From Tridacna crocea (Eukaryota > Mollusca > Bivalvia > Cardiida > Cardiidae), in contig OX031059.1 of NCBI GenBank assembly GCA_943736015.1, forward strand, positions 19,530,001 through 19,594,000: a DNA stretch of 64,000 nucleotides, in the 5' to 3' direction. This document shows, piece by piece, positions 545-41,066 of the stretch. The translations under genes were made by a program, and so were the position numbers. The notes beneath the pieces are model-generated. The model worked only from the letters and a program-made list of their open reading frames with translations, was not told the DNA's origin and searched no databases. Within the stretch, counting starts at the first letter, position 1; every line of letters starts with the position of its first letter.

Positions 545-735
545 TTAAAAATGTTCACTAAATTCTGTTACTGCTGGCTTTGTTAGTCTGCCTGATTTTG
601 CATCTGATATAGCACCCCACAGGTCAAAGACGAAGTCGTCAGTAAAACCAAAGTCTGCCAGGTCCGAGTTGTCAATAGCTTCAGCAAACTCATGTGGATT
701 ATTCTTCTCATTACCAGCTTCCCATATCTGTTGGG
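545..735 (-). CDS. GIPC: GIPC exon 5 (residues 277-339), terminal exon
   Basis: The acceptor is TTTTTTAG|CCCAAC. The exon encodes [20 protein letters not shown] and the signature [17 protein letters not shown], and ends in a stop after FSEHF. This is the GH2 end that, in the family, contacts myosin VI. The apparent ATG further upstream (799) is intron sequence. Confidence 0.95.
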
Positions 736-3700
736 CTAAAAAAGAAAAAAAACTTTTCTTGTCAATAAAAAATGTCTGCATTATCACACAACATGGCAAT
801 ACAAATACTTTGCCTTGCCAGAAGATTTTTTCAAGTTTTATTAGTGTATGTTTTTAACCCTTAACCAAACAAGCCATAGTTTTTACGACCCTGAGATAGA
901 AGCCTTTTGAAAACGTGGTGGGAAAAGGAGAAAATGCTGGTAACCAGCATTTTCTCCTTTTCTCACAATGTTTTCTACTCTTCAAAAGTCAAATTTCATT
1001 TTTTGAGCCACACTTATTTTGATCTTTGCAAATGCGCTCAATTTGGACAAGTTTAAAATTTTGTCATTTGATAAAGAGTTAACACTTATGTTCCCATTGC
1101 AAAAGATTTCATGAAACTTTAACAGTTTATAGGGAAGAAAAGAAAAAAACCTCCATTTCAAAAACCGTGGCACATAAGCACAGGATACAACTGCATGAAT
1201 CTTTACCAAAACTCCTGTGTTAACCCTTTGCCAAACAATCCCTCGTTTTCATGACCCTGATAAAGAAGCCTTCTGAAAACACTGTGGGAAAAGGAGAAAA
1301 TGCTGGCAACCAGCATTTTCTCCTTTTTCCACAATGTTTTCTACCCTGCTGGAAACAAATTTTACTTTTCCAGTTGCAGTTATTTTGTCGTCTGCAAGTT
1401 CAATTTAAACCAGTCTAAAATTTTGTTGTTTGGTTCAAGGTTAAGCAACTTTGAGGAAAAAGGACTTTGAACACATTGTGGGAAATACATCTTATTGGTT
1501 GAAAAGGAAAATTTGACATTGGTTATAGGGAAAAAGAAATACATGCTGGCAAAAAGTGTTTTTTTTCTTTTCTTCACAATCCTTTAAACCTTAACTATAC
1601 AGACAAATCAACTTAAGGGTGAATCAACTTAAAGGCAAATCAACTAAGTCTGAGTCCATTAATTCCCAAAACTTTTTGGGCATAGCTGAATGTGCTGACT
1701 TTAGATTTATTTTTTGGTACTGATAAAAAGTAAAAAATAAAAAATGTGGACATAATAATTTTATGGACCCCTGTCTTTAATTTTGTGGGCAAATTTACGG
1801 CGTCTTTTTAATTTAAACAAGCAATTTCGTTGAAATGATATCCCCGGCCGAAAAAGACTTTTTTTGATACAAACGTATAGGAGGTATTCTGTTTTGCATG
1901 TACATGTGGCCTTTTTGTTATTGGTCCATGAAGAAATTATACATTAAGCTCCCTTGTTCCATGGCACAGGATTTCATTAGATAAAACAAGAGCCGTCAGA
2001 GACGGGTTATGCTCCCCAAACGAGTGCTTGTCATAAAATATATGAAATTGATAAAAATTCACTTCGTTTATCCTAAAAGAACCTGTTCATGCCCCCCAAA
2101 ATTTGAAGTGAAAAGGCAATTACTATCTTAGAGATAGCCAACACAAACTTGTAGAGGACAATAAGCCCCCTTTAAGCCCCCTTTTCCCATAATATTGGAT
2201 CATTGAAATAAAAACAATGGGTGTGTGATTTGTGGCATTTTTAAATAATAATTCAAAATTCGAAATTTGATAAAATTTTGAGCAGTCATGTAGTAAATAT
2301 TACATAAAACAATTTTTTACATGAAGCCCCCTTTTCCCGAGACGCAGCCTGAAATTGAGAAACAGGAAGAGCGGTACCTGGGCAACGTTCCAACAAGTTC
2401 AGATTTGAAATTTAACAAAGTTTTGAGCAAACAATTTTTTCCATGAAGTCGCCTTTTTCCGTGATGCAGCCTCAATTTGAGAAAGCAGGAAAGACATATT
2501 TGCACATTAATAATTAATAGATTGAAAAAAACAAAGGGCACATGTTGAAACTTGTAAAAAAAGATGGAACCATGAAATTTCATGAAATTTTGACAAAAAC
2601 TGAACAAGGTATAAGTAAAAATTGCAATTTTGCATTAGGGCCCCTTTTTCCTTGTCATTATACAAGAAACCCCCTTTTTCCATGACAGAGGGTCAAATTG
2701 AAAAACACATAGATAAAGAAACAAGAGCACATGGTGAAACTTTGAAAAAACAAAATAACCATGAAGTTTAATGAAATTTTGACCAAAACTGAATGAAATA
2801 TTAGTAAAAATTGGAATTTTGCAAGAAACCCCCTTTTTCCATGACAGAACGTCAACTTAAAAAACGCCCAGATTAAAAATAGCAAGGGCACATGCTAAAA
2901 TTTTCCATAAACAATATAACCATGAAGTTTCATGATATTCTGACAAAAACTGAATGAGATATTGGTAAAAATTGCAATTTTGCATTAAGCCCCTTTTTTC
3001 CATGACACGGGGTCAAATTGAAAATCCGGGAAAGATACGTCGGCGCCTTACCCCAAGGAGTTCATATATGAAATTTTATCCAATTTGGTCCAGGGGTTGT
3101 GGAGAAATCGAGTTTTGAAGAGAAGACTCCAAACATTAAAAGTGTACTTAAGTGTAACTATAGTGAAACTTAAAATCGCTCTCAGTCGGCCATTTTGCAT
3201 CGAATCAAAAAACCAAAAAAAGTGTCTCGGGAGAATGGGTCATTGTATATGTATATAAAGTTTCACGAAATTCCATCCAATGGTATTGGAGATATTTGCC
3301 GGGACGGACACACGGACGGACGGATGGACGGACGGACAGACGGAAGGACGGACGGACGGACAATGCTAAAACTATATCCCTCCGCCTACGGCGGGGGATA
3401 AAAAATGTTTCTCATTTAGGCTTTTTCTACGTAGACATTTTTAATCAGAGTATTTCATTTCATTAACACCTGAATGGTCTAAATGGATGTCATATATTTC
3501 CATAAAACACTAAACTTAACCTGTTTTATTCCCATAAATGATGAAACTGACCTAAATCTGTGCCATTTATTCTTAGAAACCACGACACCCACCTAAATCT
3601 TTGTCACATATTCCTGTACATAATGGCAATTACCTGAATCAGCATCATTTATCCCTATAAATGATGAGATTTGCCTAAATCTGAGTTATTGCTTGGTCAT

Positions 3701-6700
3701 TTGACTCATTACCAAACAACAATATTTTAGTTTTGTCCAAATCAAAAGCATTTGCAGACAACAAAAAAAAAGTGACTGAAAATTTGAAATTTGTTTAGTG
3801 AAGGGTAGAAAGCATTAAGGGAAAGGAGAAAATGCTGGTTACCAGCATTTTCTCCTTTTCCCACAATGTTTTCTGTTGGCTTCTTTCTCAGGGGCTTCAA
3901 AAGTAGGGATTGTGTGGTAATGGGATAATCCCAAAATGATGACATCTAAATCTGTGTTAATGATTCCTATAAATAAGGACACTTGCATGTACCTAAATCT
4001 TGATCATCTTTTGCCATGAACAATGAGACTCACCTAGTTCTGTGTCATTTATCCCCATAAATGATGACACCTAAACCTGTGTCATTTATTCCTATACATG
4101 ATGACACTAACTTAAACCTGTGTCATTTATTCCTATAATTAATGACACTTACCTAAACCTGTGTCATTTATTCCTATACCAGGATTCAAAATTCCCACAT
4201 ATTTACTCGCAAAATGCAAGCCAGAATTGGAAAATGCGATTTGAAATTTCAAGCACTTGCAAACAAAATGCGAGAGCAAATTATTGAAGAACAGTTACTG
4301 AATGTAAATTTCATATGTGAATACAAAAAAGGTTTTGTTCTGGATTAACATCGGCCATATCGCACTGAGAATACCCTTCGACGGTTGTTGGTAATTTTAC
4401 GTGTCGCCATTGAAGCCTCCGAGTTGTAGTTCTTTCTCCGACTTTTGTGAGACAAGTGCGTCCGTCTGCACTCACAGCCGATACTGAGGTTTTGCGTTTT
4501 TTATACGGAAAAAACGGTAGGCGGATTCAATCTTTGATTTAAAACAAAAACATATGTCAATCTTTCATGAAAAGATAAATCATTATCCACAAATAGCTAC
4601 GAGAAGCAAGTCGGACTTGGTGGACTCCCTAAAACAGTTAACGGACAGGCAGATATTTGGATGTGACACGTCCGTATTTCATTTACAAAATTGTCCACCA
4701 CTGTAAGTTTGATAGAAATTTAACTTGGCATTAGAAAAGAAATTCAACTGGAATTGAATCGATTGTTAAATGAGGGTTTTAATGTCAATTAACGTTCCTT
4801 CTGTTTGGTTGTTGTCTCGGTTGACAGGTTTCGTAGTAGAATAGAATTGAACATTCGTTCTTTACAATTGATAGGCAAGCTGAGCTTAAAAAAGATGCGA
4901 GTCCAGTTTAAATTTTGCAAGTGGAAATAAAAGGTACTTGCTAAAATTTGCAAGTGAATAAAAAAACGAAATTCGAACTCTGTATACATGATGACACTTA
5001 CCTAGACCTGTGTCATTTATACCTATACCTGATGACACTTACCTATATCTGTGTCATTTATTCCAATACCTGATGACACTTACCTAAATCTGTGTCATTT
5101 ATTCCCATAAAGGACTCCAGGAGACCATTTATCTTGTCAACAGCCACGGTAGCATTTTCCCCAGCCTGTTAAAGTCAATAAAAATCCTTGTTAATACAAT
5201 TTATTACACAAAATCAAGTAATTATATTTATAGTTTTTATTAACCCATTACCACACACAATTCGCCTTTTCATGCCCCTGAGAAAGAAGCCTTTAGAAAA
5301 TGTTGTGGGAAAAGGGGAAAATGCTGGTAACCAGCATTTTCTCCTTTTACCCCCATGTTTTCTACCCTTCACAAAACAAATTTTAAAATTTCAGTCACTT
5401 TTATTTTGTCGTCTGCAAATGCTTTTGATTTGGACAAACCTAAATTTGTCATTTGGTTATGATTTTTAAACCTTCCACTGAACAACCGTATGTTTGTTTT
5501 CCTGTTTAATTGTTTGTTTGATTGAATGGTGTTTCACACTGTTTCAACAATAATTTCAGTCATAACACAGTGACAGCTGCAGGGGCTCTTACTTTTTTCT
5601 TACTCATTGTGCCATACTTTTAAAAAATAATGTATTAAAGCATAGGTGCTATAAATTATAAAGACTTATAAGCACTTTTATTCCACAATAGTATATTACA
5701 GCCTTGCATTTCAAAAGAAATATGTATCAGAATTATGAGCAATGTATTTTGTTCTAAAAAAATTTACCAAACCTTAGGCTGATTACACTATGCACTTTTG
5801 CAGAATGTAAATGCAAGTTTTTGCAGCTACATACATGTAGCTTGTCATAGAGAACTCCAAGGCTCCAAAGAATCCACTTATACGAGTATGGATGAGGACA
5901 TGTGAAATATCAGACATGGTGGTCCAAAAGGACAAGTGGTAAATAGGAAATTGTAAACAAGTAAATTTTTCAGATTAACATTTAATACAGGAGACAAAAA
6001 AGGCCATTCCATTATAGAGTAAGCAAATTAAGGGTATTCAGGAGATTAAATATTGAAACATGACATAAAAGTGCTGGTACTCGCTCCAAATGAGATGGCT
6101 TTCATGTCAACCTAATGACATAACTTGGGACCGTTCATTGCAAACAAGAATGATTTAATATGCTTCAGGCAGATCTAATGCAAAACAAGCCACTTTGCTT
6201 CTATGAAAATGACGACATTAATATTAAGCACATACTTTCTGGAAACTTGTTTTGGCTATATTAATTTCTATAACATGACTTGATAAATGATACAAGTTAC
6301 TGAAACCCGATATTTAAGGTTTGTTGCTACGGCAGACAATTTAATTAGTGCTTCCGTTTCATCTGAAAAAAAAAAAAGGAAATGTCAAGGTCCAGTATCA
6401 GAAAGATATTTCCTTGTCGGACTAGTGCGGATCAAGACAGGGCAAGTATTTTTTTCAAAGGCACTTGTCCTGCAGGACAACTGCCTTTCCTGGAAATTTT
6501 TGGACCCTGGAAACTTACAAAGAAATTTTCAAATTCTTTTATTGAACAGTTTAACCCTTTCCCAAACGACAAATTTTAAACTCTTCCAGACTTAAAGAGT
6601 TTGCAGACAACAATTCTAACTTTCATAACAATGACAGAAAATTACCTGATTGGGCAGAAAACACTTTGGGAAAGGGAGAAATTGCTCATTACAAGCAATT

Positions 6701-32117: not shown

Positions 32118-32429
32118 GGGGGTGACCTATCATTTAATGTCCCAGCTAGATTCAGTCGCTGGCTTGTCTATAGGTTGTCTCATTTGCACTTTGTTTCTAC
32201 TTCCATGTCGTCGACACAAGATGGATCCCATAATGCGACAGTATACATTATTCATGGAACCAGTAAAACCTAGTCTCAATTATGAGACGTTAATGATGCT
32301 TCTTTTCATATTTGGACATTTATTGTGCATCGTAACGTCTCGACTTAACGGTTGTTTTTTTTTTAATTCTAGAAAACCTACGGCTAGGTACGGTGGCACA
32401 AAAGTGACATGGAAGATATATTTTATACT

Positions 32430-32668
32430 ACGTGCGCACGCAGTAGCTAATACGTGAGCACGTAATAAGTAATACGTGCGCACGCAGTAGTATTACGTGC
32501 GCACGTAGTAGCTAATACGTGCGCACGTAATAACTAATACGTGCGCACGTAATACTATTGCGTGCGCACGTAATAGCTAATACGTGCCCACGTATTAACT
32601 AATACGTGCGCACGCAGTAGCTAATACGTGCCCACGTATTAACTAATACGTGCGCACGTAATAAACTA
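32430..32668. repeat. left ACGTGCGCACGT array
   Basis: About 11 palindromes ACGTGCGCACGT (variants CGTGCCCACG, CGTGAGCACG), spaced by about 22 bases with TAATAGCTAAT-type linkers. Confidence 0.88.
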
Positions 32669-34148: not shown

Positions 34149-34211
34149 AATTCTATCTTCCACTTCCATCTTGAAACAATGGCTTCCGTACATGATTCTG
34201 ATTGGTGGATT

Positions 34212-34506
34212 ATTACGTGCGCACGTAATATGTAATACGTGCGCACGTAGTAGCTATGACGTGCGCACGTGTTAGTTATTACGTGCGCACGTAATACTAC
34301 TGCGTGCGCACGTATTACTTATTACCGTACGTAATAGCTACTGCGTGCCCACGTATTAGTTATTACGTGCGCACGTATTAGCTACTGCGTGCGCACGTAA
34401 TACTACTGCGTGCGCACGCATTACTTTTTACGTGCGCACGTATTAGCTACTGCGTGCGCACGTTATAACTAATACGTGCCCACGTATTAGCTACTGCGTG
34501 CGCACA
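34212..34506. repeat. right ACGTGCGCACGT array
   Basis: About 13 palindromes of the same 22-base period as the left array, in inverted register. Confidence 0.88.
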
Positions 34507-40789: not shown

Positions 40790-41066
40790 GCCGGTGTAAT
40801 GCGGAGAAATGACCATACCCTACAAAATGACCCATGGGTCATTTCTCTACGTATTGGAATGACCCATTGGTCATTTCTCTATGTAGAGGAATGACCCTGG
40901 TCATTATTCTGCGTATTGGAATGACCTATTGGTCATTTCTCAACGTAGAATAATGACCTGGATCATTCCTCTACGTAGTGAAATGACTTCTGGGGTCATT
41001 TCTCTACGTAGAATATTGACCGGGGTCATTTTGTAGGGAAGGGTCATTTCTCTGCATTACACCGGC
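40790..41066. mobile_element. 277-bp multi-hairpin MITE
   Basis: Ends GCCGGTGTAATGCGGAGAAA and GCCGGTGTAATGCAGAGAAA (right inverted). Between them lie about six small palindromes of AATGACC ... GGTCATT, separated by CTACGTA-like links. Confidence 0.83.

Follow-up and report, generated by a model that had tools for sequence, protein, structure and literature searches.

Tandem arrays are reportedly a source of splice variation, the subject, by its title, of a study from 2007 (PMID 17210920, referenced in PMC3488318). Among single genes, the nearest precedent for the locus described here appears to be human IFI6, in which a tandem repeat lies at an exon end, the units carry alternative 5′ splice sites, and several mRNA species from different repeat donors have been reported (PMID 7596809, from 1995, as cited in PMC4526556; also referenced in PMC2572611). 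For human genes in segmental duplications, passages of PMC2812944 describe internal tandem repeats at exon-intron boundaries, and for the potato RdRp gene PMC4974935 describes the gain of an intron by tandem duplication across a splice boundary. An abalone gene carries a length-variable 27-bp minisatellite in its intron 3, and splice donors are not mentioned in the passages of PMC6905558 that describe it. Here we analyzed a window of 64,000 nucleotides (nt) from the bivalve Tridacna crocea (assembly GCA_943736015.1, contig OX031059.1, positions 19,530,001 to 19,594,000; positions below are those of the window unless a contig or locus is named), in which intron 4 of a GIPC gene contains a minisatellite whose 41-nt unit is made of the end of exon 4 and its splice donor.

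The GIPC array resembles that of IFI6 in its position at an exon end and in its units carrying predicted alternative donors, and differs in having a 41-nt unit whose next donor breaks the reading frame. It shares with the repeats described in PMC2812944 the size of a minisatellite, the position across an exon-intron boundary and a possible effect on alternative splicing, but those repeats are given there as recent and paralog-variable, whereas the GIPC array is old, decayed and located in a conserved gene. Both human systems are backed by transcripts, in contrast to GIPC, which is known from sequence alone. As in the potato gene of PMC4974935, a segment with a splice boundary was duplicated in tandem and its splice signals were inherited; unlike the potato case, GIPC shows no new intron, and the existing one gained donors only. 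We consider it likely that the array is a neutral minisatellite that would have been born at the junction of an exon and its 5′ splice site, with occasional mis-splicing.

The 41-bp array at the end of GIPC exon 4

Exon 4 of GIPC (5084-5165, minus strand; 82 nt, ending in phase 1 with G as its last base) was placed by its frame, its acceptor TTTAACAG and its homology to GIPC1, and its terminus reads TTT ATG GGA ATA AAT GAC ACA GAT TTA G, followed in the intron by GTAAGT (FMGINDTDL plus G), in agreement with the sequence-only reading of the exon-adjacent unit. A 41-nt unit was fitted to both strands of the window, and its scores were compared with those obtained on Markov sequences (4 x 64 kb, one strand; maximum score: 15). 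The fit gave a chain of 14 minus-strand units from 5105 to 3497 (scores in chain order: 37, 37, 35, 33, 35, 23, 21, 12, 16, 21, 23, 21, 29 and 10), 12 of which exceed the control by score, the units at 3968-4014 and 3497-3532 resting on position. Tandem Repeats Finder (TRF) reported two sub-arrays of period 41 (4040-4178 and 4983-5109). The array is a minisatellite of 13-14 head-to-tail units with a period of 41, consisting of the two TRF blocks and further decayed units; the sequence-only reading had given about fifteen, and the unit fit gave no independent support for a fifteenth near 3465. A unit-like stretch elsewhere in intron 4 (1624-1666) scored 13 and was discarded since the controls reach 15.

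Each unit corresponds to 28 coding nt from exon 4 plus 13 intronic nt, and similarity begins with TTTATGG at 5111. All units lie on the minus strand. Unit 1 (5072-5112) is the exon-straddling copy with the true donor GT at 5083-5082; units 2 (5031-5071) and 3 (4990-5030) have their donor GT at 5042 and 5001, respectively, within an identical 11-mer, TAGGTAAGTGT. Units 4-9 occupy 3937-4181, where unit 4 again has the 11-mer donor (GT 4152) and unit 7 has TAGGTGAGTCT (GT 4033). Units 10-13 (3540-3703) are decayed, with AG/GT (the slash marking the splice point) kept in units 11, 12 and 13 (GT 3633, 3592 and 3551), and a probable relic, unit 14 (3497-3532), has a score of 10, which alone is not above control.

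An origin of the array from the exon end, for which alignment of the unit to the exon had been named as a check, is well supported by these comparisons. The majority sequence of the intronic units 2-13 is identical to the exon copy in 39 of 41 columns. Units 7-13 have a mean identity of 74% to unit 1 and of 60% among themselves, and unit 1 was closer to them than they are to each other in 2000/2000 column bootstraps. Genome searches covered 1.05 Gb in 31 contigs: a 26-nt unit core allowed ≤ 3 mismatches gave 6 matches, all inside the array (reversed control: 0), and a search with 201 bp gave no match beyond the GIPC locus, its counts being lower bounds. The exon 4 peptide is conserved with GIPC1; the coding sequence is therefore older than the repeat, and the exon is its source. 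Units 1-4 retain the complete GGTAAGT, which is present in 0 of units 5-13 (3/12 intronic units overall), so that near units keep the full donor and distant ones decay, as first read. Compared with the exon, the consensus of units 2-6 has 5 differing columns, 3 of them absent from the consensus of units 7-13, as would be left by later turnover of the exon-proximal copies. Outward growth, the history drawn from this decay by the sequence-only reading, agrees with the freshest units lying near the exon, but the distal, oldest units are star-like around the exon copy, a pattern that would fit a slowly changing exon copy with later proximal turnover as well as stepwise growth outward.

The gene was identified from minus-strand exons called from open frames. 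Search by phmmer against the Protein Data Bank (PDB) gave GIPC1 at 1e-98, and the exon peptide of the window aligns to LLESYMGIRDTELA / LLESYMGIRDTELAA in GIPC1 chains, which we take to be vertebrate. The query, typed from the frames, contained a slip (AAQ for AQQ) and lacked some residues at the join of exons 1 and 2, which should leave the identification unchanged. Exons 4 and 5 joined match the GIPC GH2 domain (Pfam PF25082, 3.8e-33, with a typed peptide in which one residue is wrong). Intron 4 extends over 736-5083 (minus strand, GT...AG, phase 1), and the coding part of exon 5 (545-735, minus strand) was placed by the acceptor TTTTTTAG followed by CC, by frame and by GIPC1 homology; it opens at 735 with CC CAA CAG ATA TGG and contains the stop codon of the gene, TAA. 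Donor 5083 restores the GIPC frame and a 41-nt shift loses it. No new intron lies between the copies, because one intron explains the frame (exon 4 in phase 1 joins CC of exon 5).

Two mobile elements break the array, so that the chain from 5105 to 3497 is real but not continuous. An 803-bp transposon (4180-4982) with imperfect terminal inverted repeats (CAGAGTTCGAATTT/AATTTTGAATCCTG) and a 5-bp target duplication, GTATA (4983-4987 and 4175-4179), sits between units 3 and 4, and excising it plus one duplication restores a continuous repeat; among its genome copies, 40 were scored of 880 candidates, and 17/40 match exactly positions 6-808 of the query. A palindrome-bearing mobile element of about 230 bp (3700-3928), with blastn copies across the window, splits units 9 and 10. 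The core of its palindrome (GGAGAAAATGCTGGT.ACCAGCATTTTCTCC) is very dense, with 22 copies in the 64-kb window from 927 to 58097 at ≤ 3 mismatches, and at loci L057, L069 and L071, elsewhere in the genome, copies of the element appear by eye to border tandem arrays or to sit within them. The window holds three more minisatellites with self-complementary units, at 32429-32664 and 34210-34505 (TACGTGCGCACGTA) and at 40826-41030 (AATGACCCATGGGTCATT).

Donors of the array and the reading frame

The unit includes a 5′ splice site, and its first copy is the end of exon 4, the arrangement known from IFI6. The spare donors that share the 11-mer of the true donor lie 41, 82 and 931 nt downstream of it. 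Duplex energies were predicted with the 5′ end of U1 small nuclear RNA (snRNA) from this genome, where U1 gave 17 matches among 42 scored candidates and where its 5′ end is ATACTTACCTG in 7 of the 8 loci listed, the eighth lying on the opposite strand with its start not read. The donors of units 1-4 all had a predicted energy of -12.4 kcal/mol, and the next-best donors of the array were those of unit 12 (-11.7 kcal/mol) and unit 7 (-10.6 kcal/mol); for the other exons, the values were -12.6 kcal/mol for the exon 1 donor and about -7.3 and -8.0 kcal/mol for candidate donors of exons 2 and 3, respectively. By 11-mer and by predicted energy units 1-4 are equal, which upholds the earlier claim in that the intron starts with several equal predicted 5′ splice sites. 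The U1 snRNA genes include two clusters, at C8:53736492-53772753 and C3:41878523-41885143.

Beyond exon 4, the frame continues as GKCHQVLE and meets a stop at +23, ahead of any downstream donor of ≤ -8 kcal/mol. The translation agrees with the sequence-only reading that use of the next donor, 5042, adds 41 bases and soon reaches an in-frame stop after L-G-K-C-H-Q-V-L-E. With donor 5042 the stop lies 15 nt ahead of the new junction, and with donor 5001 the distance is 56 nt. Junction-dependent decay of an mRNA follows a 50-nt rule. With the stop 15 nt from the junction and the stop of the gene in exon 5, decay of this kind is predicted for the 5042 isoform only if the 3′ untranslated region contains a further intron.

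Arrays at other exon ends of the genome

The whole genome was surveyed for three AGGTAAGT words spaced 20-50 nt apart, which gave 97 raw matches at 34 places. After removal by eye of 16 short places of GGTA/GTAA type, 18 complex AGGTAAGT arrays including GIPC were retained; the 17 others were inspected with their flanks, plus one place of the removed kind. In 7/18 arrays, an open frame that follows an acceptor-like site terminates in the first unit; of these seven, GIPC, DHX16, cystinosin and APP are supported by homology and the other three are probable. In the DHX16 array (locus L060, C2:67253000-67259000), the exon ends exactly at KLGNE (PDB, 1.1e-11; no Pfam match). The exon of the cystinosin array was assigned by a PDB match (1.7e-8; no Pfam match), and that of the APP array by Pfam APP_N (1.9e-4; 22.2 bits, the cut-off being 22.1), its PDB search giving amyloid-beta A4 protein alone, at a non-significant 0.8. 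A further exon is MA3-like (0.0095, below cut-off; no PDB match), another has a weak resemblance to Toxin_TOLIP, a three-finger family (0.083 and 0.05, both below cut-off), and is presumably Ly6-like, and the seventh is an open frame without match.

The share of exon within the unit varies: in APP the last 30 exon bases are repeated almost unchanged in four further copies, and in the DHX16 and Ly6-like arrays merely about 8-9 exon bases are clearly within the unit. In 7/7 anchored arrays a stop precedes the next donor with a U1 energy of ≤ -8 kcal/mol. In DHX16, itself a splicing helicase, all 9 downstream donors of ≤ -8 kcal/mol are predicted to pair at least as well as the true exon donor.

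The remaining 11/18 arrays, as inspected with their flanks, showed no exon where they begin, and a copy of the palindromic element seems, by eye, to lie at the array start in at least 3 of these 11 (L057, L061 and L069). On the minus strand at about 3332-3400 of locus L057, a donor-bearing array adjoins an apparent 3′ splice site and exon (TTCTATTACAG/GTGGTTTAGATGATGCC) and fills the acceptor end of the intron.

As controls, we used two permuted words of the same dinucleotide make-up, AGTAAGGT and AAGTAGGT, and each pattern reversed. Complex places numbered 18 for AGGTAAGT, 8 for AGTAAGGT and 16 for AAGTAGGT after removal by eye of 16, 1 and 9 short-period places, respectively, and some control places resemble one family. 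Raw matches of the reversed patterns were 84, 100 and 74, against 97, 32 and 56 for the forward patterns in the same order. Across the whole genome, donor-bearing minisatellites showed no clear enrichment relative to the two permuted words. For a second donor word, AGGTGAGT, matches numbered 19, against 15 in its reversed control.

Probable neutral birth and its alternatives

Under the neutral explanation, a short segment containing both the terminus of GIPC exon 4 and the adjoining 5′ splice site would have undergone tandem duplication, with slippage or unequal exchange as the most likely mechanism, and would have expanded into a minisatellite within intron 4. With correct splicing still provided by the first copy, extra copies would be cheap and tolerated. 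Selection on both coding and splicing would hold the exon copy, and the intronic copies, which the two mobile elements have split, would decay and be turned over near the exon. The spliceosome, we infer, mostly uses the donor next to the exon and occasionally one further downstream, which would yield low levels of a frame-shifted transcript lacking the GIPC C-terminus. Like events have taken place at other exon ends of the same genome, and neutral birth at random places, some being exon ends, is enough for the recurrence. Where intronic copies depart from the exon copy, the changes are evenly spread over codon positions (20/120, 22/108 and 21/108), as expected if the copies decay freely, and seven-base windows kept better than GGTAAGT number 16/35.

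Some results weigh against this explanation. AG/GT is kept in 9/12 intronic units and is joint best of 38 four-base windows (45/48 cells), with P = 0.018 against 4 random columns, a value to be read with its post hoc choice and with rows partly aligned by eye on the motif; the bare splice site may thus be favoured, which we regard as a hint rather than a finding. Unit 1 was preferred over units 2-5 as the nearest to the old units in only 83% of bootstraps. The 7/18 exon-anchored arrays compare with 4.6 expected if 26% of AGGTAAGT words are true donors (P = 0.16), a null that was derived from the first permuted word, the second giving no usable one, being commoner than the donor word; with more anchored arrays than this null expects, a bias towards exon ends is possible.

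A hot spot of minisatellite birth at exon ends, for example through spare donors that protect splicing, appears unlikely. Seven of the 18 complex arrays do begin at exon ends, and there are more arrays per word occurrence for AGGTAAGT (18/29,128) than for AGTAAGGT (8/21,624) or AAGTAGGT (16/37,516), but the ratio is just about 1.5-1.7, P is 0.16 against the 26% null, and the reversed triple pattern comes near the forward one in raw matches (84 and 97).

Quite unlikely, too, is a regulated poison extension, the function that the sequence-only reading had offered for the downstream donors, by which frame-shifted GIPC mRNA would be degraded or give truncated protein and so tune the GIPC level. 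The equal predicted U1 pairing of four donors, the stop at +23, its counterpart in all seven anchored arrays and the retained AG/GT speak for such regulation. However, conservation over the nine columns of the donor does not exceed that of random columns (P = 0.40 for units 2-13 and 0.66 for units 5-13), GGTAAGT is gone from units 5-13, and the 15 nt between stop and junction at 5042 would not suffice for junction-dependent decay should exon 5 be the last. The spare donors are more likely neutral.

Very unlikely is selection on the hairpin ATGACAC...GTGTCAT around each donor as an RNA element masking or presenting the splice site. Its seven-bp arms flank the donor and are fully paired in units 1-5, and among 11 stretches folded, the energies of units 2, 3, 4 and 6 were matched by 13, 15, 5 and 14 of 200 shuffles, respectively. 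The exon copy, however, folds at -7.3 kcal/mol, which 28/200 shuffles equalled, and units 7, 8 and 10-13 each have at least 1 broken pair with few G-T replacements; with an unexceptional fold in the exon copy and these broken pairs, we judged the selected hairpin unsupported, and it may rather have aided slippage. A foreign origin of the array, as a mobile minisatellite or repeat with secondary likeness to the exon, would accord with the palindromic minisatellites and mobile elements common in the window, but it is largely refuted and exceedingly improbable, the whole-genome searches matching the GIPC locus alone and the exon portion of the unit coding for a conserved peptide.

It is possible, though we hold it doubtful, that GIPC, DHX16, cystinosin, APP and probably three more form a recurrent class in which the ladder of spare donors is used measurably and array length acts as a heritable, length-variable dial of mis-splicing. 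How the splicing machinery selects among identical tandem 5′ splice sites is an old question, for which intron 4 of GIPC is a natural test, and the same genome offers six more likely cases that differ in exon end and unit length. The GIPC array contributes an old, decayed case from a conserved gene, and the survey contributes evidence of recurrence within one genome. Should the spare donors be used hardly ever, the choice must be governed mainly by position relative to the exon; if they are used, repeat length would be a source of heritable splicing noise.

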